Positions 1-32,736 of a stretch of DNA of 35,337 nt are shown here, one piece after another. Below the pieces are notes generated by a model. That model had not been told where the DNA came from. It saw only the letters and a list, made by a program, of their open reading frames with translations, and did not search any database. Each line of letters opens with the position of its first letter. The first letter of the stretch is position 1. Source of the DNA: a virus; the IMG/VR virus record IMGVR_UViG_3300027708_000188, positions 1 through 35,337 of that record; one strand, given 5' to 3'. Position numbers and translations under genes: made by a program.

Positions 1-195
1 ATTTGCACTTGGCTATTCTTGCCATACATAGGCATCAACCGTTCAGCCAAACACCATCTAGCTGCCATTGCATAAGCCTGTGGCAAAACAATCGTGTCAT
101 TGATTGAGTCGTATCTGCGGAAAATCGTGTCCGCAAACAAGTGCATCTCGCCCTGACTTGGGTTAGGCCAAACAAAAATATTGCCCAATGTCTCA
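1..195 (+). repeat. Terminal overlap, left copy
   Basis: These 195 bases recur at 35143-35337 in direct orientation. They differ only at 24 (A; G in the other copy) and 147 (C; T). Both differences are in third codon positions of the gp4-like gene and are synonymous. Confidence 0.9.
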
Positions 196-821
196 GTTGG
201 TTGGTAATACAAGGCTTTAGGCCAAGGACCAGACAGCGTTTTCAATCCGATCATTTCGTAATCTTCTACCGCCAATATTGCTACAGGGTAATCTAAACCA
301 CCATTAACAATAGGAGTACCATTTGAATTAGTATTGATACGAACAAAAGCAGAACTGATAACAAGGGGTCGCTGGTAATAGGCGCTGATTGTTGTTGATG
401 CGGATGTTTGGGAAATGTTGACTGTGTACGTTCCGACTTCATTAACATTACCTCCCGCGCCTGTGGCAAAGCCTGTGATAGTTGTTCCTGATACAACACC
501 AGAACCACTTAGGGTTTGACCCAAAGCAATTGCGCCTGAGTTAATAGAAGTGATAGTCAAAATGTTGCCAGATATACTTCCAACAAAGTTTGCGCCTATT
601 TGCCCGCCTGGTCCAATTGTGTATTGCGTCTGGCCTGGCGTAATTGGAAATACGATTTCGGTCTTATAAAAAACCATCATATCTTCATTTGACCACTGAT
701 CAAGCATATCGTTCAGCATATCAAACGCATCTTGTGATGCTTCTGGCGTAGGTGTTTCACCAGCTTCTAACGCGCCAATATCTTTTAGTGCTCTGCTAAT
801 AATGTCAATTGGTTGTGCCAT
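1..821 (-). CDS. P22 gp4-like head-completion / tail accessory protein, N-terminal part (cut by window edge)
   Basis: Only the first 273 codons are here. The frame runs off base 1 and continues in frame at 35142-34992 if the ends are joined over their 195-bp overlap, giving 323 aa. The N-terminus ([18 protein letters not shown], then a helix around [13 protein letters not shown]) resembles P22 gp4-type proteins, which bind the portal after packaging and form the first ring of the tail. Residues about 80-140 contain an inserted Gly/Ser/Thr module (LGQTLSGSG, then TTITGF and GTYTV) that is not part of classical gp4 and resembles modules in the neighbouring gp10-like protein. The ATG at 821 is supported by AAGGA six bases upstream. 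Its place beside the gp10-like gene is as in P22. Fold family likely, exact role inferred. Confidence 0.75.
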
Positions 822-830
822 TTTTGTTCC

Positions 831-1130
831 TTAAATGTTTGGTGTAAAGACTTTTGGCAACCAAGGTGGATGAGCTGTTACTGGTTTGCTTTGGGTTAAT
901 TGTTTTTGTAAGTTTTCTTTAATTAATCCCTTACTAGCAGTATCTATCCATTCAGCAATCATTTCTTCAGTTACTTGGTCAAACTCAACATTCATTTTTG
1001 GTTCGTCAAATATCCAAGTACCCTCAGTTTCTACTGATAGGTCATCTTCATAAGCCGTACACAAATATTTAGCTTGCGTAATTAAGCCATCGGCAGCGTA
1101 AATATCGGTGATTTTCCAAACGTAATTCAT
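831..1130 (-). CDS. Small phage protein of unknown function near tail genes
   Basis: The protein has 99 aa and starts MNYVWKITDIYAADG. It resembles a group of short phage proteins with an N-terminal YxWKI strand and a C-terminal helical part (TEEMIAEWID), often found beside tail-fibre genes. That resemblance is from memory and is not a functional assignment. The ATG overlaps the stop of the 43-aa gene upstream (ATGA), so translation is probably coupled; no separate ribosome binding site is evident. There is no signal peptide or membrane segment. It may help assembly or trimming of the fibre proteins encoded just upstream in the same operon. Confidence 0.7.
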   Translation of the reverse strand: MNYVWKITDIYAADGLITQAKYLCTAYEDDLSVETEGTWIFDEPKMNVEFDQVTEEMIAEWIDTASKGLIKENLQKQLTQSKPVTAHPPWLPKVFTPNI

Positions 1131-1258
1131 TGTTGTTCTTGCTGTTGTTCTTGCTGTTGCTGTGCCACTGCCGCATCGTAAGCCGCTTGTTCTTCAGCGG
1201 TGTACTCAACTTGAGTGACTTCACCTGTTTCTACGTTAACTACGATTCTGTGTGTCAT
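1127..1258 (-). CDS. 43-aa protein with Gln/Glu repeat tail
   Basis: This short frame reads MTHRIVVNVETGEVTQVEYT, then an Ala/Glu-rich helix and a tail of only Gln and Glu. The tail is encoded by an imperfect 12-bp tandem repeat (TTGTTCTTGCTG on the plus strand, about 1134-1158). The beginning matches a type of tiny phage protein common in tail operons (MTH-x-V-x-N-x-x-TGE-x-x-x-x-EYTAEE). It starts five bases after the upstream gene and its TGA overlaps the next ATG, so it fills the gap exactly. The function is unknown. The repeat could vary in copy number between relatives. Confidence 0.6.
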   Translation of the reverse strand: MTHRIVVNVETGEVTQVEYTAEEQAAYDAAVAQQQQEQQQEQQ

Positions 1259-1263
1259 GATGT

Positions 1264-1794
1264 TTACTCGTAAAAAATATTAACTGTTCCAGCGTCAAAA
1301 GTGTCAGTGCCACCTGCTGTGGTAATTCTTACAGCAGTAAGAGCCGCACCAAGAGCAATTGAGCCATTTGTAAATGATGTAAGTGCCGTTCCTGTTGTTT
1401 GACCTACGCTACCTGATCCAATCCAAATATTTCCTGTAATGTTTGTAAAAACAACTATTCCACTTAACGTATCTGCCGCAAGTACAAGATTATAAAAATT
1501 AAATCCATTTGTATAGGCTAAAGTTCCAACGCTACCAGCTATAAAACTAGAATTTGTAACATAACCAGTAGTCGTAAAAGTTGTTGAACCAGTTCCAAGT
1601 TGCAATATTTTTTGACTTGTTCCACTTGTAGATACACCTTGAAACTGTACAGTAATACGCTTCACCCATGATGGGATAGAAGTGAAGTCAATGCTTGTAC
1701 CACTGGTAGATGCCACAGCAGTACCAGAGGTAATACCCAGTATTGCACCTGAGTTGATTGTTACGCTGTTTGAACCATCAATTACTGTACTCAT
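1264..1794 (-). CDS. Tail fibre / appendage component
   Basis: The protein has 176 aa from the ATG at 1794, which overlaps the upstream TGA as ATGA; a second ATG lies six bases further up. The sequence is rich in Ser, Thr, Gly and small hydrophobic residues, with no Cys, typical of beta-structured trimeric fibres. The stretch ASTSGTSIDFTSIPSWVKRI is a recurrent motif of phage tail-fibre modules. No enzymatic motif is visible. It is one of a run of small beta-rich proteins (1264-7154) that probably build the virion appendages or decorate the tail. Confidence 0.65.
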   Translation of the reverse strand: MSTVIDGSNSVTINSGAILGITSGTAVASTSGTSIDFTSIPSWVKRITVQFQGVSTSGTSQKILQLGTGSTTFTTTGYVTNSSFIAGSVGTLAYTNGFNFYNLVLAADTLSGIVVFTNITGNIWIGSGSVGQTTGTALTSFTNGSIALGAALTAVRITTAGGTDTFDAGTVNIFYE

Positions 1795-2414
1795 GCCCAT
1801 GTCCCCACGTTAGTCGCTGCGCCAGATGCGGAAAGCGGATTGATTCGGATGTAGCTACCAGCAGCTGTTGAATAAGCACCTCCAGGTGCGGCTGACAGCG
1901 TGTACTGCGGAATGAATGTACCGCCAGCGTTGATTGACACTGTGCCTTTTGCTATGAAATAGTTTGTGTTGTTGCCAGAAATAGTCGTGGTTATTACTGT
2001 TGCAGAAGTGGAGTTTGCAACAAATGACCCAGCATTATTAGACTGGCCTGATGGTGTCGATGATGAAAGCTGGTTGGTGTAGCCTTGGTACAAAATATTA
2101 TTGACGGTCGCTGTCCCACCAAAACCCAAAGCAATGGTGTGCGATGTTGATCCTGCGCTTCTGCTTAAATCAACAACAATCTCAAACTCATACACAGTGC
2201 TTGCTGATAGCGTTACGCCAACATTAAACAAGGTTTGTGCGCCAGTTGCATTTGACCCAACATAGTCAGAATTCAATCTATAATACTGCTGAGTCGGAAC
2301 AATGCCTCGCTGTGTGCCGATAGGTGTACCCGTAAAGATGGGGCTTGAGTATTCAATGTTGCCAACGGCTGGCGTACCAATCAGCGTGTCAGAAGTTAAA
2401 ACAAGTATTGACAT
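1791..2414 (-). CDS. Tail appendage / receptor-binding module
   Basis: The protein has 207 aa and begins MSILVLTSDTLIGTPAVGNI. A short N-terminal strand is followed by a jelly-roll-like beta-rich domain from about residue 40 to the end (YYRLNSDYVGSN, YEFEIVVDLSRS). The layout of short anchor plus carbohydrate-binding-like C-terminal domain is common among phage receptor-binding proteins. AGGA lies eight bases before the ATG. The stop overlaps the next start. The role is inferred from composition and position, not from a recognised enzymatic motif. Confidence 0.65.
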   Translation of the reverse strand: MSILVLTSDTLIGTPAVGNIEYSSPIFTGTPIGTQRGIVPTQQYYRLNSDYVGSNATGAQTLFNVGVTLSASTVYEFEIVVDLSRSAGSTSHTIALGFGGTATVNNILYQGYTNQLSSSTPSGQSNNAGSFVANSTSATVITTTISGNNTNYFIAKGTVSINAGGTFIPQYTLSAAPGGAYSTAAGSYIRINPLSASGAATNVGTWA

Positions 2415-2416
2415 GA

Positions 2417-2635
2417 TTAAGTTCCTGAAGTTGAAGCCAACAAATAATATGTTGTTCCGCCGATATTAATGGCAATTTTGTTTGTCACAGTACTTAAAAC
2501 CGAAGCAGAAACAACAGTTGAAGCTAAAATATTTCCAGTTGCCGCTGGTAATGTCAATGTGTTTGACCCCGCAACAGCAGGGGCGGCAAGTGTTACCTGT
2601 CCGCTAGTGTCTCCTGATATAACAACTGAACTCAT
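2417..2635 (-). CDS. Short tail-fibre-type protein
   Basis: The protein has 72 aa and begins MSSVVISGDTSGQVTLAAP, followed by GSNTLTLPAATGNIL. This repeated phage-fibre N-terminal motif (VISGDTSG, then TLTLPAATG) is also present in altered form in the next gene and inside the 980-aa fibre. The end (KIAINIGGTTYYLLAS) resembles C-terminal tips of such fibres. An AGGAGG ribosome binding site sits ideally before the ATG, the strongest in this gene run, so it may be made in quantity. It may be a stand-alone copy of a fibre module. Confidence 0.65.
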   Translation of the reverse strand: MSSVVISGDTSGQVTLAAPAVAGSNTLTLPAATGNILASTVVSASVLSTVTNKIAINIGGTTYYLLASTSGT

Positions 2636-2669
2636 GTGATTCCTCCTAAATCGTATCTAATTTTTATAG

Positions 2670-3224
2670 TCATAAAACAACCCAACGTGAACCCGTTGGA
2701 ACAGTGACTGTTTGACCTGATGCAACCGTGATCGGACCTGTGGACATTGCGTTATTACCCGCTGTGATTGTATAACTTGCGGTCACAGTTTTACCATTTT
2801 CATAGAACACAGCATCACTTCCCGCGCCTGTTGCACCACCCAAAGAAGTCCAAGAAGCACCGTTATAACCCTCATATTTTGACAAACTGCTGTTAAATCT
2901 TATTTTTCCAGTTGCCGCAGATGGGCGTTGAACAGTTGTTCCAACAGAAATTTGGGTAGCCCCAGTCGATGCAAATGAAGAATCTGCCGTAGACGCAAAC
3001 ATAGCACTAGCAGTAAGGTTTGTGCCATCAAAAGTTAAAGCAGAAGAGTTTTGTAATACCCCGCCTGTACCAACATACGGAACTTGTCCCGCAGTTAAAG
3101 CTGACGAACTCCACGCCAAATTACCAGATGCTGCTGGCACATTTAAAGTGTAAGTTCCAGCAGTGTTTGGGCCAAGAAAATTAACCTGACCACCTAAAAC
3201 CGCTTGAAAGACTAAGGTACTCAT
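2670..3224 (-). CDS. Tail fibre protein with repeated fibre modules
   Basis: The protein has 184 aa. Residues 1-40 are a VVISGDTSG-type anchor (VLGGQVNFLGPNTAGTYTLN). A central segment (TAGQVPYVGTGGVLQNSS, then TFDGTNLTAS) matches a widely shared phage tail-fibre repeat. About residues 95-130 carry the GKIRFNSSLSKYEGYNGASW motif found near the C-terminus of many tail fibres. The last segment ends TVPTGSRWVVL, also typical. AAGGA precedes the ATG. It is likely a trimeric appendage protein; receptor specificity cannot be read from sequence. Confidence 0.7.
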   Translation of the reverse strand: MSTLVFQAVLGGQVNFLGPNTAGTYTLNVPAASGNLAWSSSALTAGQVPYVGTGGVLQNSSALTFDGTNLTASAMFASTADSSFASTGATQISVGTTVQRPSAATGKIRFNSSLSKYEGYNGASWTSLGGATGAGSDAVFYENGKTVTASYTITAGNNAMSTGPITVASGQTVTVPTGSRWVVL

Positions 3225-3234
3225 TGTCTATCCT

Positions 3235-4209
3235 TTAAAAAAACGCAAGAAAGTTGCCATTACTTGTAACTGCATCTGCGGTAAGGTAAATAAATAAAAC
3301 CCATCCACCACCACCAGCACCACTTCCAGAAGTTCCAGCACCACCAGCACCAGGCCCAGGTGTGCCATTAAATCCGCCGCCAGGACCGCCGCCAATAGTT
3401 ACATCACCAACGCCAGTGGTTGCATTAGAATAAAGAACGTAAAGACCACCATTATTAGCAGAACTATTTAAACCAGTTGCGCCATAACCACCGCCGCCGC
3501 CTCCTGCACCATTACCACCAGTGCCACCAGCAGTACCATTTGGCGAACCAGAAGTACCCCCCGATCCTCCACTTGCACTTCCATTTCCACCAGTAGCACC
3601 TGAGCCGCCAGCCGAAGAAGTTCCGCTGCCAGAAGAACCACCGCCACCAGTGCCACCGCCACCGCCATGACCTCTATTTGTATTAGTGTTCCAAGCATCA
3701 CCAGCGTTAGAGCCAGCACCAGCAGGTGAGCCAGCACCGCCACCACCACCAGCATTATTTCTTGAACTAGTGCTTCCATTGCCTCCATTACCACCACCAA
3801 ATTGAACATCATATGTATAAATAGTAGTACCAGCACCAAGACCGCCAGTAGATCCAAAACCAGATGAACCAGTACCAGTCCCTACACCTTGAGTTTTTCC
3901 AGCAGGAAAGCCAGGGCTACCAATTTTAATACACGAGCCATAACCGTTGTTTTGTGCGGGACTATCTATAGTGTAATAAATGGTTGTTACACCAGCAACA
4001 ATTGGTACTGTTATTGAACTGCCAAGAGTTTTAGCATATCCACCACCTCCGCCACCAGCATATCTATTTGCTGTGGCAGTGCTAGTTACACCATTTCCAC
4101 CATAACCTAATGCTTCTAATGAAACCAGTGAACCAAAATCGGCAGGGGTTATAAAACTTGAATTAACAGACGATGGTGAATTATAAAAAATATATTTAGT
4201 TACAGCCAT
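3235..4209 (-). CDS. Glycine-rich tail adhesin
   Basis: The protein has 324 aa from ATG 4209 (MAVTKYIFYNSPSSV); a longer frame to 4245 overlaps the upstream gene and is less likely. After a beta-rich N-terminal domain (to about residue 45), the rest alternates Gly-rich runs (GGGGGGYAK, GGGNGGNG, GGGGAG, GGGGGTGGGG) with short Asn/Ser/Thr linkers. Polyglycine segments separated by variable loops are typical of T4-superfamily gp38-type adhesins and similar host-recognition tips, where the loops decide receptor binding. The C-terminus turns hydrophobic (GGGWVLFIYLTADAV). It probably sits at the fibre tip. The glycine codons make a long false frame in another register. Confidence 0.7.
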   Translation of the reverse strand: MAVTKYIFYNSPSSVNSSFITPADFGSLVSLEALGYGGNGVTSTATANRYAGGGGGGYAKTLGSSITVPIVAGVTTIYYTIDSPAQNNGYGSCIKIGSPGFPAGKTQGVGTGTGSSGFGSTGGLGAGTTIYTYDVQFGGGNGGNGSTSSRNNAGGGGGAGSPAGAGSNAGDAWNTNTNRGHGGGGGTGGGGSSGSGTSSAGGSGATGGNGSASGGSGGTSGSPNGTAGGTGGNGAGGGGGGYGATGLNSSANNGGLYVLYSNATTGVGDVTIGGGPGGGFNGTPGPGAGGAGTSGSGAGGGGWVLFIYLTADAVTSNGNFLAFF

Positions 4210-4211
4210 GA

Positions 4212-7154
4212 TTAAGCCTGTGTAGTTACTGCAATAACATCCCAACGAGTGTTATTGGCGTTATAAATACAACCAACATAAGTCGTTTTATTTACCACTG
4301 TCGTTGTTGGCAAGGTAACTCCAATTACAGTGTATGTGGCATTCCAAGTTAATGCTCTAGCTGTTCCGTTATCAAGAATTCGGAATATCAATTTATTTCC
4401 ATCAACAGGTGTTCCTGTCGGCGCATTAATAGTTAACGCAGTTGTTAAACCAGTAATAGCATAAACATCATATGAACTAAAGTCTGGTGTTAATGGGCTG
4501 GTTGGGCTGGCGGCACTTGAAACTCTTGGGTTTATACGTTTGCTTGTCAGTGTTTCAGTACCAGCTAATGTAGCTAATGTTCCACTTGTTGGCAAAGTTA
4601 TAGCGGTTGTTCCAGAAACAGTTAGTGTTGTTCCAAAAGCCCCAGAAATTGTAAGCGTGCTTGATGCGTTATTTGCAACACCTGTACCGCCTTGTGCAGG
4701 AGTAACTGCCGCATTGCTAGTTAATATAGTTGCCGTTGCGTCTGGAAGTGTAAAAGTTCTTTCTGCTGTGGTTGGACCAGAAAACTTGGTAAATCCATTG
4801 CCAGTACCACCATAAGTAGACGCAATAATCTGAGTCAGTGCGGCAGAGCCATCAAAGTTGTTGCCGTATATTGCTCTAGCCGTTGTTAATGTAGCGGCTG
4901 AACCTGTTGTATTTTGATTTAGTGTTCCTATTGCTGTATTAGTAACGCTTGTAACTTGTCCTTGTGCATTTGTAACAAAAACAGGTATTTGCGTGGAAGT
5001 ACCATAAGTTCCCGCTGTTCCAGTATTAGTAATTGAAAACTGGTTTGTTGTAAGGGATAAACCTGTACCAGCAGTGTAGGTTTGAACCGCCGCAAACTGG
5101 ATAAATGTAATGCTGGTTGTACCAACAGTTATTGGCAATAATGTCTGCTGCACCCACGATGTATTTGCATTGGTTGTTCCAGCCAATATAAGCAATAAAT
5201 CGCCCGCATCAATTTCATTTGTGCCTGTGCCGCTTGTGTCGTAATCTGTTGCACGGGTCAACACATATGCAACACTTGCTGTACCCGCTGTTGTTAATGT
5301 ATAAACTCCATTAAATGCGGCGCTTGGTGTGGTGTTATTTGTATATGCGCCAGTTTCATTCTTTATTAAAATTCGCTTGCCAACATCTCCAGATGTAAAT
5401 GTATATCCATCAATCGTTAATGTTCCAACCGCATTAGCAGTTATTGTTGCGCCAACCCCACTTGTGCCATTGTTGTATGTGTAAGCCGCAGATAACGCCG
5501 CTGTTGTTGCATAGTTACAAGCCGCATGAAAGTTAATTCCAGTAGCAATTGAATCAGCATATGACTTATTAACAATGTCTGAGCTTGAGCTTGGCGCTGT
5601 GGATATAGTGCCAGTTGTCAAAGTAACAGATGTAATATCTGTATTTGCACCACTTTGAGCGGCACTTAGATTTGATCTAGCACTTGCGGCAGATGTAGCA
5701 CCAGTACCGCCATTTGCAATCGCAACAGTTCCAGTGACGTTAGCCGCATTACCAGAAATGTTTCCGCTGACTTGTGAGCCAGGTAAGCTTAATGAGCTAA
5801 GAGTTGTTAGCGTACTATTGCTAGATGCCGTGATATTACTAGCTGTTCCTGTGGTATTTTGATTAAATGTTGGCCAAGTAAAAGTTCCAGTAGAAAAATC
5901 ACCAGATTGAGGTGTGCCCAAAATAGGAGTAATAAAACTTGGTGATGTAGCCAACGCTATTACAGTACCACTTCCTGTAGTTGAATATGACGTTCCCCAA
6001 GCAGATCCAGTGGAATTAGCAATACCAGCAGCAGGATAAACCATACCACTTCCACCACCAGTAGAATTAATAGTAATAGCTGTTGAACCATCATAGGTAG
6101 TGCCAGAACTAAACGTGATATTTGTGCCTGCGGTCAACGCATACTGCACTTTTCCAGCGGTCAAAGATGTAGCCGTGCCTGTCAAACTTGCACCAGAACC
6201 GTTAAATCCTGTGGCAGTCAATATTCCGCTAGATGGCTGAAACTGTAACTTAGTAGAACTAACAGTAATAGGCAAATTACCTGTGCTATTACTTAAAATA
6301 GATGGATACCAAGTTGCAGTTGAGCTGGTATTGTCAGTTACCGCCACATTTGTAGCATTTGTCGCCGTAGTAGCCGTGCTTGCTGATCCCGCTGAACCAT
6401 CAATGTTTGTACCTGTCAAACTAATAGACGCTGATGATCTATTCAAAGCTACTGCGGTTGTTCCAATATAAAGCGTTGAATTACCTAATACCGCACTAGA
6501 AATAGTCCCAGATAAATTACCAGCGGTCAAGCTAGTCAAACTTGCGCCCGATCCACTAAAGCCAGTAGCCGTTAAAACGCCCGTAGATGGTACATATTGC
6601 AGTTTGGTGGATGACACATATTGAGTTGACGCATTGCCCGTTGTAACCGCCGCAAACAGCGGATAACGGGTGGTTGCCGTTGTCGTATCGTCCGAAATAG
6701 CCACAGAAGAAGTGGGGTTTGACCAGTACGGTGTTCCAGACCCCGCAGATGTCAATACTTGGCCTGATGATCCATTCCCAATAAAACCTGTTGCGTTTGT
6801 ACCACTTTGATAAGGTATGTTGCCTGCGACACCATTATTAAGATTATTGGCATATGTAGCTGTTCCTGACAATGTGCCTGCAAAATTAGTAGAAGTTAAA
6901 GTCCCACTGTAAGGATTAAAAGATAACTTTGTTGAAGTGACATCTAAAACCGTCACAGCGCCTGTACTTACAGGGCTTAATGTTGGATATAGAGTGGCAT
7001 TTAATGCCGTGACATCTTGAATGCCAAGAGTGTTAGTTCCAGAAACAACAAATGGCTGACCCTGCCCAATAAAGGTATTAAATGTGTTATCGACATTAAA
7101 CAGCGCCTGAACAGGCAGTATGTTTTGATCTAAAACAACAGCAGGATCAGCCAT
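4212..7154 (-). CDS. Large tail fibre protein with tandem repeats
   Basis: The protein has 980 aa, the longest in the genome. The N-terminus (MADPAVVLDQNILPVQALFN) is probably the virion anchor. Residues about 50-340 contain three diverged repeats of a unit with STKLQF-x-PSSG-x-LTATGF-x-GSGA. A middle domain (about 555-690) with DVGKRILIKNETGAY and TRATDYD is a known phage fibre module; the C-terminus (KLIFRILDNGTARALTWNA) is another, common in fibres of marine and freshwater phages. The composition is Thr/Ser/Gly-rich with almost no charged residues. It is likely the trimeric shaft and domain array that carries the downstream adhesins. No depolymerase motif was recognised. Confidence 0.8.
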   Translation of the reverse strand: MADPAVVLDQNILPVQALFNVDNTFNTFIGQGQPFVVSGTNTLGIQDVTALNATLYPTLSPVSTGAVTVLDVTSTKLSFNPYSGTLTSTNFAGTLSGTATYANNLNNGVAGNIPYQSGTNATGFIGNGSSGQVLTSAGSGTPYWSNPTSSVAISDDTTTATTRYPLFAAVTTGNASTQYVSSTKLQYVPSTGVLTATGFSGSGASLTSLTAGNLSGTISSAVLGNSTLYIGTTAVALNRSSASISLTGTNIDGSAGSASTATTATNATNVAVTDNTSSTATWYPSILSNSTGNLPITVSSTKLQFQPSSGILTATGFNGSGASLTGTATSLTAGKVQYALTAGTNITFSSGTTYDGSTAITINSTGGGSGMVYPAAGIANSTGSAWGTSYSTTGSGTVIALATSPSFITPILGTPQSGDFSTGTFTWPTFNQNTTGTASNITASSNSTLTTLSSLSLPGSQVSGNISGNAANVTGTVAIANGGTGATSAASARSNLSAAQSGANTDITSVTLTTGTISTAPSSSSDIVNKSYADSIATGINFHAACNYATTAALSAAYTYNNGTSGVGATITANAVGTLTIDGYTFTSGDVGKRILIKNETGAYTNNTTPSAAFNGVYTLTTAGTASVAYVLTRATDYDTSGTGTNEIDAGDLLLILAGTTNANTSWVQQTLLPITVGTTSITFIQFAAVQTYTAGTGLSLTTNQFSITNTGTAGTYGTSTQIPVFVTNAQGQVTSVTNTAIGTLNQNTTGSAATLTTARAIYGNNFDGSAALTQIIASTYGGTGNGFTKFSGPTTAERTFTLPDATATILTSNAAVTPAQGGTGVANNASSTLTISGAFGTTLTVSGTTAITLPTSGTLATLAGTETLTSKRINPRVSSAASPTSPLTPDFSSYDVYAITGLTTALTINAPTGTPVDGNKLIFRILDNGTARALTWNATYTVIGVTLPTTTVVNKTTYVGCIYNANNTRWDVIAVTTQA
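5720..7050 (-). repeat. Diverged tandem repeats within the large fibre gene
   Basis: Three units of the 980-aa protein share an order of motifs: a line ending in TGN or TGA, then V-x-STKLQF-x-P-x-SG, then LTATGF-x-GSGA (first unit LTSTNFAGTLSG). Limits are approximate. The units differ by many substitutions, so this is old duplication, not fresh slippage. Confidence 0.5.
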
Positions 7155-7157
7155 AAC

Positions 7158-7502
7158 TTAGGATTGGTCAGCCGCAGGAGTCACATACAAAATGCCAGCA
7201 GTTGCAGAATTGCTTTTTGCTGTCAGATAGTATGGTGTTGTAGGCGTAGCCAAAATCAGCGGTGTTGTCATGCCAGCAGCTAAGACAAAATCGCCATTTG
7301 TGCCATCTACTGGGAAAGCGGGTGCGCCAGGATCGGCTGTACCCCATTTCACAGCAATAGGCGCTGCGCCAGTGTTCAAAAACGCAGTGTAGTTGATCTG
7401 GTCATTGGTTGAATCATCAATCAACACAGCCGCATGAGCCGTGCTAGTGACTGACAACGCAACTGTCTGACCAGCATTTCTCTGGACTGATGACTGTGCC
7501 AT
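7158..7502 (-). CDS. Virion accessory protein, unknown function
   Basis: The protein has 114 aa (MAQSSVQRNAGQTVALSVTS). It is beta-rich with small residues and has one notable segment, AAPIAVKWGTADPGAPAFPVDG, of the type found in small phage appendage or decoration proteins. Its start and the stop of the 146-aa gene upstream share one base (TAATG), so the two are translated together. It lies between coat/decoration and fibre genes, which suggests a small structural protein or a connector for the fibre. Confidence 0.6.
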   Translation of the reverse strand: MAQSSVQRNAGQTVALSVTSTAHAAVLIDDSTNDQINYTAFLNTGAAPIAVKWGTADPGAPAFPVDGTNGDFVLAAGMTTPLILATPTTPYYLTAKSNSATAGILYVTPAADQS

Positions 7503-7942
7503 TACAGTTGAGCCACATGAATGATGCCGAAGTTCAAAGTCAAAGCCTCAGACAATGAGCCTGCGCTTGCGTTTGAAATGACAACTGTGAATGAACCGTT
7601 TGCAACAGCGGCAACGCTTAACAAATATGTACCAGCAGTCGCCGCGCCAGAAGCCAAGGCAATAACTGGAATATCGTAAGCGCTGACAGCACTGTTTGTA
7701 ACCACAAAAGCCACTTCAGCACCAGCCGCCAAAGCCGCGTTATTGGTCACAATTTGACCTGCCGCCGCATTGATGGTAACGCCTGTTGATTTGCTGGTTA
7801 ATTGAGTTACAGAAGAAACCGCTGTTGATGGTGAGCCAGTTGTGTAGCCCATCTGACCACTAACTGAGTTAACCAAAGAATAAGTAGCGTCAATAATATC
7901 TTGGTCAAGATATGCAACGCCAATTGCTTGAGAGTTAGCCAT
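7502..7942 (-). CDS. Beta-rich virion protein (fibre- or decoration-type)
   Basis: The protein has 146 aa. Residues 1-60 (LDQDIIDATYSLVNSVSG, then SVTQLTSKSTGVTINAAAGQIV) lead into a beta-sandwich-like C-terminal half rich in Ala, Val, Ser and Gly. The T-S-K-S-T-G-V-T-x-N motif is common in phage structural proteins near coat genes. AAAGGA precedes the ATG at good spacing, and the gene is separated from the coat cluster by a terminator (7987-8015). It may be a head fibre or surface protein. Confidence 0.6.
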   Translation of the reverse strand: MANSQAIGVAYLDQDIIDATYSLVNSVSGQMGYTTGSPSTAVSSVTQLTSKSTGVTINAAAGQIVTNNAALAAGAEVAFVVTNSAVSAYDIPVIALASGAATAGTYLLSVAAVANGSFTVVISNASAGSLSEALTLNFGIIHVAQL

Positions 7943-8034: not shown

Positions 8035-8463
8035 TTAAGAGTAAACAGAGAAGTCGTAACCGTAAACGTAAATGTCCACAGTTCCACCAGTAACAGCAGT
8101 ACCAACCTTAACGTACAGAGTCTGTGCGGTCAGGGCAGTAGTTTTTGTTCCAGCGACAACAGTTGCGTTGGTAACGTAAGTTGAACCAGTGTTGCTAGTC
8201 AAAGTTGCGTTAGTAACGATTTCTGTGCCGCCGCCTGCTGGTGCAGTCCAAATAGCCAATGCGCCAGAGCTAACGTCTTTGTTAGCGTTGGTGATGGCCA
8301 CGTTTTGTACGCAGTAGGTGGTGACGTTCTGAGCAGGCAAAGTGACAGTCGAATCGCCAGTAGCGGAGATAGGAACGCCAGTTGCCACAAACAACAAGCG
8401 GATAGCTTGGTTTGTTGCCAGGTTGCTTGGGTGAATTGTGGTGACGCTATTAGGTGCAGCCAT
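8035..8463 (-). CDS. Putative capsid decoration / head fibre protein
   Basis: The protein has 142 aa (MAAPNSVTTIHPSNLATNQA), rich in Thr, Val and Ala. An apparent single beta domain ends in VDIYVYGYDFSVYS. It directly follows the coat gene, has a strong AAGGAG site, and is closed by a terminator, so it is made at coat-like levels. Small abundant beta-rich proteins in this position are usually head decoration or head-fibre proteins. That role is inferred from position and composition. Confidence 0.6.
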   Translation of the reverse strand: MAAPNSVTTIHPSNLATNQAIRLLFVATGVPISATGDSTVTLPAQNVTTYCVQNVAITNANKDVSSGALAIWTAPAGGGTEIVTNATLTSNTGSTYVTNATVVAGTKTTALTAQTLYVKVGTAVTGGTVDIYVYGYDFSVYS

Positions 8464-8488: not shown

Positions 8489-9733
8489 TTAAGCTGCAAC
8501 GCGGCAGGCCAACTCAGGGTACAGCGGCGCCCAGCCATACAGCACATCCAAACGAGTCGGGATTGAATCGTTGTTGATGGTGTATTGACGAACCACACGC
8601 ATTGACAGACCGATTTCCTTATCGCTTGCACGACCAGCAAAATGCACACCCTCTGGCAATTCCAGATCGGCTACTGCCAAACAGAACGCATTGCGGTGCA
8701 TGATGATGTTTTGTGGGGAAACAGTACCAGTGTTGTTGAACGGTGTAACAGCAGATGCACCAGCGTTTGTAATTGAAACGTTCTGGAACTGACCAGCGGT
8801 GATGACAGCAGGGCTGACGGTCACAGAAGTAGTACCAGAAGTAGAAACGGTCACAGGTGCGGTCACAACAAAGTTACGCAGTTTGTTTGAACCATAAGCC
8901 TGACGGTTTTGTGGGTTGACCGCATAAACGTTGGCGATCTGGATAACGTCACCTTGGTTCAACGATGCGTTGGCAGTTGTAGCTGACAAAGCAATAGTTG
9001 AAGTAGATGCCCAACCAGAAGTCAAAAAGCCTGTTGCAGTTGAAGTGTTGCAAGACAAAGTGGCGGTTGAATAAGAACCGAATGTCTGTGACACCACGTT
9101 CTGATCCATCTTCCAGTTCATGCCTGCGCTGTCACGACCCATCAAACCCTTGCGATACTGCTCGCCAATGGCTTCTTGAGGCACAAACAGACCTTTCAAG
9201 CTGTCCACAATAGTGGCAGATGTAAAGGGTTCAACGATACATGAACGGCGACCGTCACGTGGTGCGCCTTCAGCGTCCAAGTAAGCGGCGGCAGTCAGGT
9301 ATGTAATCAAACCTGTGGGTGGTGTGCCAGCAGTACCAACGATGTTGGCGGTGTTGTTTTTAGCCATGACCAAACCATCACGGTCGATCTTGTTGGCAAT
9401 AGCCGCCACAGCAGGCTTCAACACGCGGTCACTAAACATATCCAAGGACAAAGCCAAGTCTTGTGTAGTGAACTGTGTATCAACGTGAAACTGTGTTGAC
9501 AAAGTTACAGGAACGCTTGTCTCGTTGAAATCTTCAACGTTCAAAGCAGGGCCAGTAGTACCGATGAAACGACCAGGTCTACGGACGTTAACGGTGTTAC
9601 CGATTTTTGCACCTACGACAGCGAATTGATCGTCATAGTTGCGGTCGACTTCCGATGTGAAAGTCAATTCGTTTTCCAAGACCATCAACGCTTCGTTGGT
9701 GATCTTAGAGATGGTTAGCAATTGATTAGCCAT
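8489..9733 (-). CDS. Major capsid (coat) protein, P22 gp5-like
   Basis: The protein has 414 aa, close to the 430 aa of P22 coat. It starts MANQLLTISKITNEALMVLE. Segments follow the P22/HK97-fold coat pattern: an N-terminal arm, a spine-helix region around LKPAVAAIANKIDRDGL, a Gly/Asp loop (about 155-215), a Thr/Ser-rich insertion (about 225-340, with QNRQAYG) in the place of the P22 I-domain, and a C-terminal strand RLDVLYGWAPLYPELACRVA. The ATG has a clear GGAG site. The scaffold and portal lie upstream in the order portal-scaffold-coat, as in P22. It forms the icosahedral shell. Confidence 0.85.
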   Translation of the reverse strand: MANQLLTISKITNEALMVLENELTFTSEVDRNYDDQFAVVGAKIGNTVNVRRPGRFIGTTGPALNVEDFNETSVPVTLSTQFHVDTQFTTQDLALSLDMFSDRVLKPAVAAIANKIDRDGLVMAKNNTANIVGTAGTPPTGLITYLTAAAYLDAEGAPRDGRRSCIVEPFTSATIVDSLKGLFVPQEAIGEQYRKGLMGRDSAGMNWKMDQNVVSQTFGSYSTATLSCNTSTATGFLTSGWASTSTIALSATTANASLNQGDVIQIANVYAVNPQNRQAYGSNKLRNFVVTAPVTVSTSGTTSVTVSPAVITAGQFQNVSITNAGASAVTPFNNTGTVSPQNIIMHRNAFCLAVADLELPEGVHFAGRASDKEIGLSMRVVRQYTINNDSIPTRLDVLYGWAPLYPELACRVAA

Positions 9734-15068: not shown

Positions 15069-15198
15069 CGTCTTTCTCCAGTTCTGCCAGCGTCCACTGG
15101 CATTGTTGCAACGCACCATTGATCTGGTGTAACTGTTGTTCCAACTCGCGGCCTTTTGCCATCAAGTCGTTTATACGCATTTGGATGATTTCTTTCAT
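15034..15198 (-). CDS. 54-aa coiled-coil protein
   Basis: The protein reads MKEIIQMRINDLMAKGRELE and continues QQLHQINGALQQCQWTLAEL, then an acidic end. It is predicted to be almost wholly helical. The ATG overlaps the stop of the GroES-like gene (ATGA), which supports translation, and the 3' end overlaps the next gene by 35 bases. The pattern of an E/Q-rich helix followed by a GAxQQCxWxLAEL motif occurs in other small phage proteins. Function is unknown. Confidence 0.65.
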   Translation of the reverse strand: MKEIIQMRINDLMAKGRELEQQLHQINGALQQCQWTLAELEKDDAEKVDQPESI

Positions 15199-15455
15199 GA
15201 TTCCTCAACAATAGCACAAATGTCAGCTTCTTGAATGATTTGGTAGTCCTGTCCGTCAATGCGGTGGGTAGGCCAGTTCAAATAATCCCCATTGCCATAT
15301 TTAATAAAGTCACCCACTGCCGCTTGATCCACTTCTGAACCAACCGCCACAATAGTACCCTCATTAAATGACTCTTTGTTGTTTACCCAAATTATGTCGC
15401 TAAGTATGCGAACCTCTGGTTTGACAACAACTCGATCACGCAGCGGTCGTATCAT
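15195..15455 (-). CDS. GroES-like co-chaperonin
   Basis: The protein has 86 aa; bacterial GroES has about 97. The start IRPLRDRVVVKPE, the core GTIVAVGSEVDQAAVGDFIK, and the end EADICAIVEES match the Cpn10 fold. A short segment LSDIIWVNN (about 18-26) sits where the GroES mobile loop carries its GroEL-binding hydrophobic tripeptide. No chaperonin partner is encoded here, so it would work with host GroEL, probably in folding the coat or tail proteins, as known for phage co-chaperonins such as T4 gp31. It overlaps the Cys-rich gene upstream by 20 bases. Confidence 0.8.
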   Translation of the reverse strand: MIRPLRDRVVVKPEVRILSDIIWVNNKESFNEGTIVAVGSEVDQAAVGDFIKYGNGDYLNWPTHRIDGQDYQIIQEADICAIVEES

Positions 15456-19413: not shown

Positions 19414-20181
19414 ATGCACTTTTACCAATTTCATATTGGCGACTATAAGTCGCACACACATCATCTTTCACCATTAGAAGACTTGGCATACCGCAGGCTT
19501 CTAGATCATTACTATCTTCATGAAGCACCAATCAGGCAGCGTGATATTGCTAGGCAGATTGGTTTGCGTGAATATGAACAAGAGGTTTTGACAGTATTGG
19601 ATGAGTTTTTTGTATCAACAGAAAAAGGGTTTATAAATCCACGCGCTGACGAAGAAATAGCCAAATACCGCAAATTTTCAGAAGATGGCAAAAAAGGGGC
19701 GGCTAAGCGTTGGCATAAGGATGGCAATGGGGAGGCTATTAGCCCCCCTAATGCGACCCCAATAGCAACCAATAACCAAGAACCAATAACCAATAACCAT
19801 AAACCAATAAAAGAGAGAGCAACTATCGTTGCTACGCCTGACGGCGTTTCACAATCTGTTTGGGATGATTTCAAAACTTTAAGAAAAGCAAAAAAAGCAC
19901 CGATAACTCAACGAGCCATTGATGGCATCATTGCCGAAGCAGGCAAAGCAGGCTGGTCATTGGAACAGGCTTTAACTGAATGTTGTGTTCGTGGATGGCA
20001 GGCATTTAAAGCAGAATGGGTTGCTAAACCTGTTAACAAGTTTGATGTTGTGCATACCACCGTACCATCTAGATCAGAACGTGATCCAGAATTGACCAAA
20101 CTTGATGAGGACAGAAAAAAAAGTGTGCCGCCAAATCCTGAGATATTGGCTAAATTAAAATTATTGAGGGGAGTAAATTGA
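19414..20181 (+). CDS. DUF1376-type replication protein
   Basis: The protein has 255 aa from ATG 19414; a GTG two codons earlier is possible. The N-terminus MHFYQFHIGDYKSHTHHLSP, then LEDLAYRRLLDHYYLHE, is the DUF1376 signature, a winged-helix module found at the N-terminus of phage replication initiators. The middle is Asn/Pro-rich (TNNQEPITNNHKPI), a linker. The C-terminal part (SQSVWDDFKTLRKAKKAPIT, then EQALTECCVRGWQAFKAEW) resembles DnaT/O-type C-terminal domains that load host helicase. With no polymerase or helicase in the genome, it is the best candidate to start replication with host machinery. It ends in a TTGA overlap with the methyltransferase start. Confidence 0.75.
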   Translation: MHFYQFHIGDYKSHTHHLSPLEDLAYRRLLDHYYLHEAPIRQRDIARQIGLREYEQEVLTVLDEFFVSTEKGFINPRADEEIAKYRKFSEDGKKGAAKRWHKDGNGEAISPPNATPIATNNQEPITNNHKPIKERATIVATPDGVSQSVWDDFKTLRKAKKAPITQRAIDGIIAEAGKAGWSLEQALTECCVRGWQAFKAEWVAKPVNKFDVVHTTVPSRSERDPELTKLDEDRKKSVPPNPEILAKLKLLRGVN

Positions 20182-21167
20182 ATGAGCTGGCTTTATTCGC
20201 AGGCGCTGGTGGAGGAATACTTGGGGGAAAACTGCTTGGATGGCGAACCGTCTGTGCAGTCGAATGGGAAGCTTACCCAGCAAGCGTATTGTGCGCCCGA
20301 CAAAATGACGGAATTCTCCCGCCTTTCCCGATTTGGGATGACGTACAAACCTTTGACGGAAATCCCTGGCGAGGAATTGTCGATGTCGTCAGTGGTGGCT
20401 TTCCATGTCAGGACATTAGTGCCGCAGGAAAAAGTGCAGGAATTGACGGAGAACGGTCAGGAATGTGGAGAGAAATGGCACGGATTATTGGCGAAGTACG
20501 ACCCAAATACGCATTTGTGGAGAACAGTCCAATGCTCGTTACTAGAGGACTTGAACGAGTCCTTGCAGACCTTACCGCAATGGGGTATGACTGTCGCTGG
20601 GGAATTGTATCTGCTGCCGACATTGGTGCAAACCACAAACGAGAAAGAATCTGGATTGTGGCTAACTCCAAGCACAGTGGACATTCCAACACGGTCAGCG
20701 GATTCAATGAAGAAAAGATTGGAATATCGTCAGAAAATTGGCAGAAATGGAGTGGGCGCAGGATGTCTTTCGGAACAAGTGGAATGGTCGGGAATGGGCA
20801 ATCCAATTGGTTACATAACGAAAGAAACGTGGCCTACGCCAACAGCACACATGGCAAAAGAAACGAATGCGCCCAGCGAACACAACAGGAACACGCCAAC
20901 GCTGACAGCACAAGTGAATTGGCCTACGCCTCAAGCAGCAGATTTCAAAGGGGCAACGAGTGCAGAAGCCATGAGCAAAGCGGCAGCAAGGGGATATGCA
21001 CCGAATTTGCCAGAAGCTACGGCAGCTTCAGTTGGTGGTGGGAAACTGAACCCAACGTGGGTAGAGTGGCTAATGGGGTGGCCGCTAGGGTGGACAGACT
21101 TAAAGCCATTGGAAACGGACAAGTCCCTTTGTGCGCCGCAACAGCATGGAGAATTTTAAGTGAATGA
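20178..21167 (+). CDS. C5-cytosine DNA methyltransferase
   Basis: The protein has 329 aa from a TTG start; no other start precedes motif I. It shows motif I LALFAGAGGG (4-13), motif IV SGGFPCQDIS with catalytic Cys77, motif VI VENSP (114-118), motif VIII HKRERIWIVA (153-162), and motifs IX-X RVANGVAARVDRLKAIGNGQ near the end. The order matches Dcm-like enzymes. The region between VIII and IX (about 165-285), where target recognition lies, is Ser/Asn/Gly-rich and low in hydrophobic residues. It would methylate cytosine in phage DNA, probably for protection from restriction. The start is weak: TTG only four bases after the ribosome binding site. About 98% of the gene is overlapped by another long frame (20182-21159). 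Confidence 0.88.
   Translation: MNELALFAGAGGGILGGKLLGWRTVCAVEWEAYPASVLCARQNDGILPPFPIWDDVQTFDGNPWRGIVDVVSGGFPCQDISAAGKSAGIDGERSGMWREMARIIGEVRPKYAFVENSPMLVTRGLERVLADLTAMGYDCRWGIVSAADIGANHKRERIWIVANSKHSGHSNTVSGFNEEKIGISSENWQKWSGRRMSFGTSGMVGNGQSNWLHNERNVAYANSTHGKRNECAQRTQQEHANADSTSELAYASSSRFQRGNECRSHEQSGSKGICTEFARSYGSFSWWWETEPNVGRVANGVAARVDRLKAIGNGQVPLCAATAWRILSE
20182..21159 (+). CDS. Overprinted 325-aa frame inside the methyltransferase gene
   Basis: This frame is +1 to the methyltransferase and open for 325 codons. It starts at ATG 20182, eight bases after GAGGGGAG, a better start signal than the methyltransferase has. The protein begins MSWLYSQALVEEY and carries SRLSRFGMTYKPLTE (46-60), LWLTP (159-163), WPTP twice (217-220, 247-250), and KLNPTWVEWLMGWPLGWT (288-305). 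From memory the MSWLYSQALVEEY start, the WPTP repeats and the C-terminal Trp-rich motif recur in many phage ORFs. I do not know of a proven function, nor whether those are real proteins or shadows of methyltransferases. It stops six bases before the enzyme's stop codon. Translation is plausible but unproven. Confidence 0.55.
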   Translation: MSWLYSQALVEEYLGENCLDGEPSVQSNGKLTQQAYCAPDKMTEFSRLSRFGMTYKPLTEIPGEELSMSSVVAFHVRTLVPQEKVQELTENGQECGEKWHGLLAKYDPNTHLWRTVQCSLLEDLNESLQTLPQWGMTVAGELYLLPTLVQTTNEKESGLWLTPSTVDIPTRSADSMKKRLEYRQKIGRNGVGAGCLSEQVEWSGMGNPIGYITKETWPTPTAHMAKETNAPSEHNRNTPTLTAQVNWPTPQAADFKGATSAEAMSKAAARGYAPNLPEATAASVGGGKLNPTWVEWLMGWPLGWTDLKPLETDKSLCAPQQHGEF

Positions 21168-24001: not shown

Positions 24002-24283
24002 ATGTACAAAGTAATTATTGACCTTGGCGATTGGTCTTGGGACGAAGATCAAACTGTGACTATCGAAACAAGCGATTTTGATAAAGTTCAGATCATTCAA
24101 GAATTCATCGAGTTTCAAAAAGATCACGGTTGGGCTGCCGACTATGACTTAGTTGAAGACTACGAAGAAGAAGAAGAAGTTGAAGAAGACGAAGTCGAAG
24201 AAGAAGAAGACGAAATTGCTGAGTACGCAGTTGGCGACATCGTTGAAGATGACGATGGACTTGTATGGGAACTGGTGGGCTGA
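24002..24283 (+). CDS. Extremely acidic protein
   Basis: The protein has 93 aa, of which about 37 are Asp or Glu and only three are Lys, with no Arg. It begins MYKVIIDLGDWSWDEDQTVT, has a short helix (IIQEFIEFQKDHGW), then an almost continuous acidic run (about 52-73, written with Glu/Asp codons only apart from a few Val and Tyr), and ends AVGDIVEDDDGLVWELV. It is expressed from its own unit with AGGAG before the ATG and a strong terminator after. Such charge is seen in DNA mimics and in some histone-like or anti-restriction proteins, but no specific family is recognised. Confidence 0.72.
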   Translation: MYKVIIDLGDWSWDEDQTVTIETSDFDKVQIIQEFIEFQKDHGWAADYDLVEDYEEEEEVEEDEVEEEEDEIAEYAVGDIVEDDDGLVWELVG

Positions 24284-27361: not shown

Positions 27362-27904
27362 TTAGGTTTTCATGATGTAGGCCAAAGAATAGTACAAAGG
27401 CAAGTTTGTACCCGCAGAACTGGTTACAGATGACGTAAAGCCGCCATTACTACCAACTGAATACGATGTGCCTGCACCAACAATAAACCTATCACGCAAA
27501 TCAGGTGTGCCGTTAGAACCATTACACAGAACATAACCAGATGGAATTGATCCTATTGAGCCTGACCACGCAATGATGCCGCCAGACGGAACAGCAGTAG
27601 CAGATGCAATACTTGACGGTATGCCATATAAATTGTCGTAAGTCTGGATCACAGAATTTGATGAATCAGCCAAAACAAATTTGTAAGAATAACTAGAGTT
27701 CAACCAGATTTCTTGCGGTGGACGACCATCAGTGCCAAGCTGAATAGGATTGGTATTCAATGATGCCCCTGCGGAGTCCGTATAGGTCGCTAAAGCCGTT
27801 GTTGAGCCTGCTTGGTAGGTGTAAATGTAGCCGCCATTTAATGGCAGTCCAGTGGTCGTAAAGAACTGGAATCCGTTACCGATGGGTGAAAGTAGATATG
27901 CCAT
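27362..27904 (-). CDS. Tail collar / appendage protein with P22-tailspike-like head-binding N-terminus
   Basis: The protein has 180 aa. Residues 1-85 (PLNGGYIYTYQAGSTTALAT, then YTDSAGASLNTNPIQLGTDG) match the N-terminal virion-binding domain of P22-type tailspikes. Residues 105-150 (WSGSIGSIPSGYVLCNGSNG with TPDLRDRFIVGAG) are a T4 gp12-like collar domain, and the end is LPLYYSLAYIMKT. It is therefore a short receptor-binding protein that attaches to the P22-type tail hub. It lies between ejection and lysis genes, where P22 keeps its tailspike. Confidence 0.82.
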   Translation of the reverse strand: MAYLLSPIGNGFQFFTTTGLPLNGGYIYTYQAGSTTALATYTDSAGASLNTNPIQLGTDGRPPQEIWLNSSYSYKFVLADSSNSVIQTYDNLYGIPSSIASATAVPSGGIIAWSGSIGSIPSGYVLCNGSNGTPDLRDRFIVGAGTSYSVGSNGGFTSSVTSSAGTNLPLYYSLAYIMKT

Positions 27905-32218: not shown

Positions 32219-32515
32219 TCAATCCCCTTTAATTAGAACTTGATCCACTTTGTCTGGATCGGTTTCATCTGTTGCGTGTATGCAATACCAAATAACATCG
32301 GTCAAGGCTTTTACGCCGTGATACATACCCGCTTTGATTTCAATGCAAGCTGGCGCTTCAATAATTTGGTTTTCACCAGCATTAGCCACAATAACTTTGC
32401 CACTTGCAATAATTGACAAGTGAGAATATTCGTGCATATGCTGTACTAGCGTTTCGCCAGCAGGAATATGCGTTTCTTTGGCATATAAACCATCAGAAAA
32501 ATGATGAATAATCAT
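32219..32515 (-). CDS. Cupin-domain protein
   Basis: The protein has 98 aa. A small beta-barrel with metal-site histidines is visible: TLVQHMHEYSHLSIIASGKV (G-x-x-x-x-x-H-x-H-x-x-x-H), then a second half with KAGMYHGVKAL and VIWYCIHATDETD. This matches the Cupin_2 pattern. No catalytic role can be read. Its ATG overlaps the preceding stop (ATGA), and it sits inside the tail-hub/ejection operon, unusual for a metabolic protein. It may be a virion surface or assembly factor, or a sugar/metabolite-modifying enzyme. Confidence 0.75.
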   Translation of the reverse strand: MIIHHFSDGLYAKETHIPAGETLVQHMHEYSHLSIIASGKVIVANAGENQIIEAPACIEIKAGMYHGVKALTDVIWYCIHATDETDPDKVDQVLIKGD

Positions 32516-32736
32516 GGGTTGTAATAAGGCACTTTGTACGGTTTTCCAGCAACCGTAATGTTGATGAATCCAACAGGATTAGCAGGCAATGTCGCGCTTC
32601 CCGCTGTCGCTGTTGATGCACTTGACCAATTAAGCAAATTTAAAAACCATTGTTGCCATGCCCTAGACGGTCGATTAGTCGTTTTGTCCAAGAACTCAGC
32701 TTGCGGATACGGTTGGGTTTGTGGGTTGTAAAGCAT
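32512..32736 (-). CDS. Small tail-region protein of unknown function
   Basis: The protein has 74 aa ([20 protein letters not shown]), then NRPSRAWQQWFLNLLNW and a Gly/Pro-rich end (ANPVGFINITVAGKPYKVPY). The pattern 'P.AEFLDKTTGRPSRAWQQWFLNL' and the final 'GxxxITVxGxxYKVPYY' recur in podoviruses of water bacteria next to tail-hub genes. It may help attach an appendage. The ATG shares a base with the upstream stop (TGATG). Confidence 0.65.
   Translation of the reverse strand: MLYNPQTQPYPQAEFLDKTTNRPSRAWQQWFLNLLNWSSASTATAGSATLPANPVGFINITVAGKPYKVPYYNP

Follow-up and report, generated by a model that had tools for sequence, protein, structure and literature searches.

A hypervariable island of probable host-binding appendage genes in a freshwater P22-like podovirus

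Gene content of the coat-gp4 interval

The IMG/VR virus record IMGVR_UViG_3300027708_000188 (positions 1 to 35,337; the window below means this whole stretch of 35,337 nucleotides) is the genome of a P22-like freshwater podovirus. The ends of the window overlap by 195 bp with two mismatches, so that the genome is circular, with a length of about 35.1 kb. Here we examine the minus-strand genes that lie between its coat gene and the gene for its gp4-like head-tail adaptor. The segment from p142 (8463) to p178 (1264) is, in our judgment, quite likely a receptor-binding appendage island that evolves by recombination, and its hypervariability is strongly supported by comparisons with near relatives. 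By open reading frame (ORF) calling, the minus-strand order is coat, p142, p146, p114, p980, a glycine-rich protein, p184, p72, p207, p178, p99 and gp4:

8489..9733, minus strand: coat protein, the upstream border, annotated as "P22 coat protein" in relatives
8035..8463, minus strand: p142, predicted jelly-roll protein just downstream of the coat
7502..7942, minus strand: p146, variable small protein
7158..7502, minus strand: p114, conserved small protein, candidate partner of A1-headed fibres
4212..7154, minus strand: p980, main fibre, with A1 module, STKL repeats, domain D and tip T2 in this order
7035..7154, minus strand: A1 N-terminal module, p980 residues 1-40
4920..5642, minus strand: domain D, p980 residues 505-745
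4215..4613, minus strand: tip T2, p980 residues 848-980
3235..4209, minus strand: glycine-rich protein, adhesin candidate, counted from its ATG (mechanical ORF calling starts it further up, at a TTG)
2670..3224, minus strand: p184, A2 N-terminal module and tip T1
2417..2635, minus strand: p72, A2 N-terminal module and a very short remainder
1791..2414, minus strand: p207, variable Ser/Thr/Gly-rich protein
1264..1800, minus strand: p178, variable Ser/Thr/Gly-rich protein
831..1130, minus strand: p99, DUF7936-like protein of 99 residues, last gene before gp4
3..821, minus strand: gp4-like head-tail adaptor, the downstream border, whose 3' part crosses the window ends
27362..27904, minus strand: collar-type protein, second binding candidate, after the ejection genes

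An earlier sequence-only reading had placed eight appendage-type genes with shared sequence pieces between positions 831 and 7154. ORF calling yields seven genes there, six of which indeed form a consecutive series rich in serine, threonine and glycine: these residues make up 43% of p980, 54% of the glycine-rich protein, 40% of p184, 42% of p72, 39% of p207 and 45% of p178. The corresponding range for the coat, scaffold, portal and both terminase subunits is 14-25%, with intermediate values in p142 (35%), p146 (31%), gp10 (32%) and the collar-type protein (38%). The seventh gene, p99, does not belong in this company, being a charged protein with 16% of these residues and a match to DUF7936 just below the Pfam cut-off. 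As for the shared pieces, three of the 78 pairs among 13 window proteins outscored all of 100 composition shuffles (p72-p184, z 5.4; p184-p980, z 4.1; p146-p142, z 3.0); with 78 pairs compared, chance alone should give about one, so only the first is firm. The p72 and p184 proteins also match by BLAST (E 1e-4) and have in common a 40-residue N-terminal module with 42% identity. A search of 27 window proteins found STKL in p980 alone, as a threefold repeat, and PYVGTGG a single time, in p184.

The polyglycine character claimed for the protein at 3235-4209 was borne out, with 103 glycines in 324 residues and six runs of at least four. Its supposed variable loops come down to one poorly conserved stretch (alignment columns 81-120, with 13 of 40 identical) in a single homologous pair. 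Its gene directly follows that of the fibre p980; it has no PDB sequence match at E <= 1 and no Pfam match, and its only relatives in the viral contig scan come from L184, which is the same phage, and the L086/L185 contig. The sole PDB match of p980 is that of domain D to the "orf22" of 9efk (E 1.8e-23). The collar-type protein at 27362, named earlier as a further receptor-binding candidate, is indeed of this type: it matches Pfam Collar below the cut-off and tail collar fibre PHROGs at E 5e-15, shares the N-terminal PHROG 26190 with the PBR31 tail spike, and occupies the position of the tailspike-type gene in PBR31 and P26218.

The affinities of the genome are evident from its structural module, with the order TerL-portal-scaffold-coat-gp4-gp10 and recognizable adaptor and gp10 (Hc3) proteins. 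The gp4-like protein matches Pfam SU10_adaptor at 32.0 bits (cut-off 27), while gp10 matches PHROG 578 (head closure Hc3; E 1.5e-99) and PDB 7eeq ("Needle head proteins"; E 1.3e-13); the coat has no PDB sequence match. The nearest GenBank records are uncultured Manatee Spring phages with a P22-like annotation (portal, coat), whose TerL is 74-76% identical. Among genome contigs, the best TerL matches are in metagenome-assembled genomes (MAGs) of Legionella (77%) and Methylococcales (74%); these may be misbinned phage and we claim no host from them. The same phage as in the window is found on another contig (L184), which spans part of p980 to gp10 and has nucleotide identities of 99.8% along a 6.6-kb and 99.9% along a 2.0-kb stretch. 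The cassette arrangement is thus not an artefact of a single assembly.

Variation and module exchange among near relatives

To the 156 loci given by the best 80 among the matches listed for TerL and for the coat we added two GenBank loci and the TerL locus of the window, making 159. Coat matches were found in 122 of them, and in 35 the coat is followed in order by gp4 or gp10; together with the window these give 36 intervals on 35 contigs (L044 and L099 lie on one contig), in which ORFs were called mechanically. One near relative, G004 (L011), was dropped for want of a gp4 match, and G009 (L138) was used in the 36-interval set alone. The distance between the coat and gp4 matches ranges from 1,773 nt (L136) to 8,824 nt, with 7,668 nt in the window.

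In comparison with the nearest relative, G001, the TerL-coat region is 94.7% identical in nucleotides and that from p99 through gp4 to the start of gp10 97.7%, each over 100% of the length, whereas just 43% of the 7200 nt from p142 to p178 aligns. For G008 the TerL-coat identity is 95.5% and 26% of p142-p178 aligns. The proteins tell the same story. In G001 the flanking proteins are almost unchanged (TerL 97%, portal 99%, scaffold 100%, coat 98%, p99 99%, gp4 99%, gp10 99%), while inside the island p142 is 34% identical, p178 54% and p980 58% (identities of p980 chain separate matches), p72 matches at 77% over 54% of its length and p207 at 74% over 13%, and p146 and the glycine-rich protein are unmatched; the exceptions are p114 (93%) and p184 (99%). 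In G008, where TerL to coat are 98-100% and gp4 is 96% identical, p142, p146, p72, p207 and p178 have no match. Thus, seven of the nine proteins from p142 to p178 in G001 and eight of the nine in G008 lack a match, match over not much more than half of their length, or fall below 60% identity, against 96-100% for TerL, portal, scaffold, coat and gp4 in both. Similarity hence drops sharply inside otherwise near-identical genomes.

A wider comparison of coat and cassette points in the same direction. Counting cassette ORFs as shared at 40% identity or more over 70% of both, pairs of intervals whose coats are at least 97% identical have on average 56% of them in common (29-100%; 13 pairs, one of them a duplicate contig), and pairs with coats 84-88% identical have 27% (283 pairs). 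The window and L086, with coats 98.1% identical, nevertheless have only 3 of 10 and 3 of 11 ORFs in common. The sequence-only reading had asked for a comparison of the cassette among close relatives, and this comparison reveals strong modularity and recombination and excludes conservation without variation; the variable region moreover reaches upstream past 7154, to p142 at 8463.

Closer inspection suggests that the change proceeds by recombination around conserved N-termini, a view that is well supported by the alignments. For instance, the G001 fibre is 90% identical to p980 over residues 1-398, then differs, and ends again in T2; a 651-residue protein replaces the glycine-rich one; and the first 39 residues of p72 (77% identical) head a different protein of 171 residues. 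The p184 protein is 87% identical in G002, where p207 has a full-length relative (67%), the part of p207 common with G001 by BLAST being 27 residues. Relatives of p178 at 52-56% are found in G001 and G002, with none by tblastn in the five other non-identical relatives compared; it also matches PHROG 29482 (E 3.4e-8), a family with no assigned function.

We defined modules from protein termini and matches and counted them in the 36 intervals with HMMs (hidden Markov models) seeded from the same proteins that were counted; short partial hits occur, such as T2 over 24 residues in G006. The counts are 31 intervals for A1, 17 for A2, 32 for p114, 24 for domain D, 27 for STKL-type repeats, eight for T1 and three for T2. 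A1 heads fibres, in two copies per interval in eight cases (L104, L105, L107, L109, L110, L131, L133, L148), and A2 heads other proteins. The tips are not tied to either: T1 is the C-terminal tip of the A1 fibre in seven intervals (L086, L138, L096, L002, L142, L017, L075), sits on an A2 protein in the window (p184) and G001, and on both A1 and A2 proteins in G002. Likewise, T2 is found at the end of the A1 fibre in G001 as in the window, at that of an A2-headed protein in L085 (at 35% identity) and at that of a separate protein of 205 residues in L086 (at 88%). Domain D, at residues 505-745 in the window, directly follows A1 (about 65-300) in the relatives listed. Glycine-rich domains are fused to A1 in L148 and L109 and to A2 in L152, L148 and L003, and stand on separate proteins in the window, L086, L002 (twice), L096, L110, L153 and L136, among others. 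Even the p146 domain is fused to the A1 N-terminus in the 185-residue proteins of L131 and L133.

Two small genes of the interval are more persistent. A1 and p114 occur together in 31 intervals, p114 alone in L090 and neither in four (Fisher P 8.5e-5, the intervals not being independent), which is consistent with p114 acting as a partner of A1. The p99 gene is present in 28 of the 36 intervals and directly precedes gp4 in 26 of these. We considered p99 as a fibre chaperone, and sequence searches returned DUF7936 and PHROG 7802, families of unknown function, along with PDB hits at chance level; its structural model (pLDDT 79) weakly resembles LptE chains (best Z 6.2), with no clear fold match. 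The idea that p114 is a paralogue of p142 found no support, at a profile-comparison probability of 2.3% and with no pair among ten module alignments exceeding 30%. Stop-codon readthrough between fibre genes was rejected: the 9-nt in-frame gap that precedes A2 genes recurs before many A1 genes, and the spacer is often TAAGGA, a ribosome-binding site overlapping the stop codon. In a phage collection, queries with p142, p114, p99 and A1 matched just one or two uncultured Manatee Spring records.

At the head of the island, p142 is probably a capsid cement or decoration protein, judging from its predicted fold. Its AlphaFold2 model (pLDDT 85.7) has no Foldseek match under E 0.001, the best being chain H of the Pam1 capsid at E 0.016, and the single PDB hit of its profile is a decoration protein at E 0.16. 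With VIA-align the same Pam1 chain scores Z 8.3 and capsid or cement chains of GP4 and KHP30/40 Z 7.3-7.6, unrelated jelly rolls reaching 7.9.

A proposed recombining adhesin locus and its alternatives

What the variable proteins do can be gauged from the families that relatives carry at this site. Their coat-gp4 interval holds pectate-lyase-like proteins in L134, L157 and L159, an endosialidase chaperone S74 in L157, a gp53-like tail fibre C-terminus in L002, SPRY and DUF7483 domains in L138 and L125, and Gly_rich_2 in L002 and L125. Host-recognition genes are thus found at this site in relatives, while the case for the window's own proteins is built on composition, modules and domain D. The earlier proposal of several alternative or layered binding proteins in one phage accordingly survives in qualified form, as several candidates per genome together with receptor-binding and tailspike domain families in the equivalent interval of relatives.

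Taken together, these observations suggest the following arrangement. The first genes, p142 and its neighbours, would specify probable shell-surface proteins; next would come the main fibre, which A1 may dock to the virion and which probably works with p114; and then further binding proteins, either standing alone or docked through A2. Recombination would keep the N-terminal modules and the flanks while swapping bodies and C-terminal tips, and would at times shift a tip from one N-terminal module to another. The tips presumably bind host surfaces, and the candidate adhesins that a phage could carry at once are p980, the glycine-rich protein, p184, p72, p207, p178 and the collar-type protein at 27362. 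The turnover of this set would outpace that of the flanking structural genes, and such rapid reshuffling probably lets the phage keep pace with changing bacterial surfaces. A bolder version, which we advance tentatively and would not quite bet on, is that a freshwater P22-like clade has added to its usual tailspike a combinatorial adhesin locus. In it, a small number of short docking modules, namely A1 (with p114) and A2, would be combined with an open-ended repertoire of bodies and tips, comprising repeat fibres, SPRY/DUF7483, glycine-rich domains and sugar-cleaving tailspikes, the tips moving between the docking modules and several adhesins occupying separate sites on each virion.

The most serious competing account keeps the island and moves it to the head. 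The A1-headed fibres would then be anchored on the capsid by p114 or another decoration protein and serve in surface or host adhesion like phi29 gp8.5 or the fibres of phage 7-7-1, leaving true receptor binding to the tailspike-position protein at 27362. Such host-contact head fibres are described in excerpts of publications on phi29 (PMC7602432) and 7-7-1 (PMC12796354; the PDB entries given in the excerpt are other than 9efk). The genes do lie directly after the coat and a probable cement protein; and domain D matches a "head decoration" PHROG in L041 (E 4e-30) and occurs in genes that bear the name capsid decoration protein in PSS2 and head decoration in Phrappuccino, so that the main fibre itself may sit on the head. 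Yet in that same L041 the C-terminal part of the fibre matches distal subunits of T4-type long tail fibres. Further, tailspike-type N-termini lie within the island in six of the 36 intervals, and their HMM picks up P26218 gp26 as well as the annotated tail spike of PBR31 (E 4e-29). The FLD module, which heads island proteins in two of the 36, is also present in the 74-residue protein after gp10 in the window and weakly in the gene after gp10 of BA3 (E 7.5e-4) and P26218 (E 0.011); its HMM pools the start of the 74-residue protein with the island fibre starts of L134 and L157. The tailspike-type N-termini inside the island, along with PHROG 26190 in the protein at 27362, favour attachment to the tail. 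We consequently lean, by a modest margin, toward fibres on the tail, and regard the head account as a whole as doubtful.

Two further accounts concern the mode of change. The site could be a cargo site whose genes are dispensable, come and go by ordinary mosaic exchange and share no role in adsorption: gene content varies strongly, p207, p178 and p72 have no functional assignment, and the interval can shrink to 1.8 kb in L136. However, most of the large island proteins searched match fibre, tailspike or adhesin types, some such as the 651-residue protein of G001 being without a Pfam match, and N-terminal modules are kept while C-termini change, which makes this account very improbable. We give still less credence to dedicated machinery, that is, a diversity-generating retroelement or an invertible segment in place of general recombination. 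Rapid localized variation behind fixed N-termini would suit it, but whole domains change rather than scattered codons. No reverse transcriptase (PF00078) match was found in the window, and 3 of 14 control genomes had one; the absence of the enzyme from a genome whose ends overlap disfavours a retroelement, and we rejected retroelement diversification on this ground.

Several observations nonetheless weigh against the picture of a receptor-binding island of uniform variability. Part of the island is conserved: p184 is 99% identical in G001 and p114 88-96% in six relatives (45% in G006), and G005 keeps p142 and p146 at 99% (p142 is 98-99% identical in G007 and G005), the variable part there beginning only at the fibre. 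The downstream border is sharp against G001 alone: in G008, p99 is 43% and gp10 54% identical, with the p99-gp10 region matching over 81% of its length at 78%, and p99 is at 38-56% in all six non-identical relatives other than G001. Variation extends to gp10, which in G003 matches at 40% over 23% of its length. The link between A1 and p114 may reflect shared descent, given that three of the four intervals with neither (L114, L115 and L117) have coats 96-98% identical among themselves. The genome comparison covers the structural half. Finally, virion proteomics, structures or binding data for this group were not found; among the open-access titles and abstract openings listed, none dealt with this phage group or the coat-gp4 interval.

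Neighbouring genes and comparison with known systems

Two genes beyond gp10 are further appendage candidates, namely that for a cupin-domain protein at 32219-32515 (minus strand), which matches the "short tail fibre" and "tail fibre adhesin" PHROGs, and that for the 74-residue protein at 32512-32736 (minus strand). The gp4-like and gp10-like proteins bear the same kind of beta-rich inserted segment (at about 378-644 and 34383-34610, both on the minus strand), and PHROGs 21413 and 38233 match both; the gp4 search in relatives also picks up a second protein downstream of their gp4. A GroES-like co-chaperonin gene, recognized by eye in the ORF list, lies upstream of the terminase genes at 15195-15455 (minus strand), and an annotated GroES is found in the same neighbourhood in the Manatee Spring relative MW202674 and in PBR31. 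On the plus strand, at 20178-21167 and 20182-21159, lie a C5 cytosine methyltransferase gene (Pfam DNA_methylase, E 1e-34) and a 325-residue ORF in another frame, which covers almost all of this gene and itself matches the phage family PHROG 1008 (E 2e-26). Both frames are matched at full length in L061, L079 and L059 (54-60% and 43-57% identity), most others of the 17 loci matching this region giving fragments only, and we consider the two a candidate dual-coding gene pair. A GAA-rich short tandem repeat at 24151-24214 (plus strand) encodes a run of acidic residues in the ORF 24002-24283.

The coat-gp4 interval could be inspected in four other P22-like genomes with both genes in view (P22 itself was left out, as was MW202557, in which the two are not together in the stretch examined). 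It measures 50 nt in an Alcaligenaceae prophage, 1375 in Rhodoferax P26218, 710 in Xanthomonas PBR31 and 712 in Thalassomonas BA3, with no coat-strand gene over 204 residues between coat and gp4 in any of the four; the site thus holds small genes or none. PBR31 orf23 is related to p108 (E 8e-16), which is present in 24 of the 36 intervals, and this kinship suggests that a small post-coat gene is common to the group and to a phage with no fibre there. As a baseline from genome contigs, eight of 27 loci were examined, L208 and L187 being informative: the cassette layout is present in L187, a Methylococcales MAG contig, and L188, L190, L194 and L206 gave no match to the window coat, while for L197 and L200 the sequence considered began at base 9500, past the expected position of the coat.

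If our interpretation is right, exchangeable surface proteins take up a fifth of this genome of some 35 kb. The conserved N-terminal modules would then be a sequence handle for adhesins with no database match, and natural pairs such as G001 and the window, which resemble each other to either side of the island, would allow a test of how the set of appendages relates to the host strain. As kinds of system, host-recognition islands of phages, modular fibres and gp38-like adhesins are already known, and the comparison with them is instructive. P26218, PBR31 and BA3 have the same order of TerL, portal, scaffold, coat, gp4, gp10 and ejection genes as the window, with a tailspike-type gene after the ejection genes in the first two; however, between coat and gp4 they have only 0.7-1.4 kb, and on the coat strand one to three small genes, against 1.8-8.8 kb with fibres in the group of the window.

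In marine phages, metaviromic or genomic islands set near-identical regions beside differing host-recognition genes (tail fibre, carbohydrate-binding, lectin-like), as an excerpt of the pertinent study relates (Mizuno et al., 2014; PMC3909814). The island described here resembles these in its near-identical flanks and differing, probably host-recognition segment. Relative to that excerpt it differs in emerging from genome comparison rather than read recruitment, in belonging to freshwater P22-like phages, in its coat-gp4 site and in the recurrent A1 and A2 modules. The T-even gp37/gp38 tip adhesins of S16 and PP01, with their polyglycine fold (described in an excerpt of PMC12892980), offer a parallel to the glycine-rich protein. 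As with gp38 in that excerpt, a separate glycine-rich protein is encoded right after the fibre gene and, in the one homologous pair compared, has a poorly conserved stretch among its glycine-rich parts. It differs in that the protein of the window has no sequence match to a PDB chain at E <= 1, and in that the glycine-rich domains of relatives are also fused to fibres. Lastly, p142 is comparable to the jelly-roll cement or decoration proteins of Pam1, GP4 and KHP30/40 in its predicted jelly roll and in being encoded right after the coat. The similarity, however, is at the level of fold only (Z 7-8, many unrelated jelly rolls being alike), and p142 departs from those proteins in being itself replaced or not found in some close relatives.

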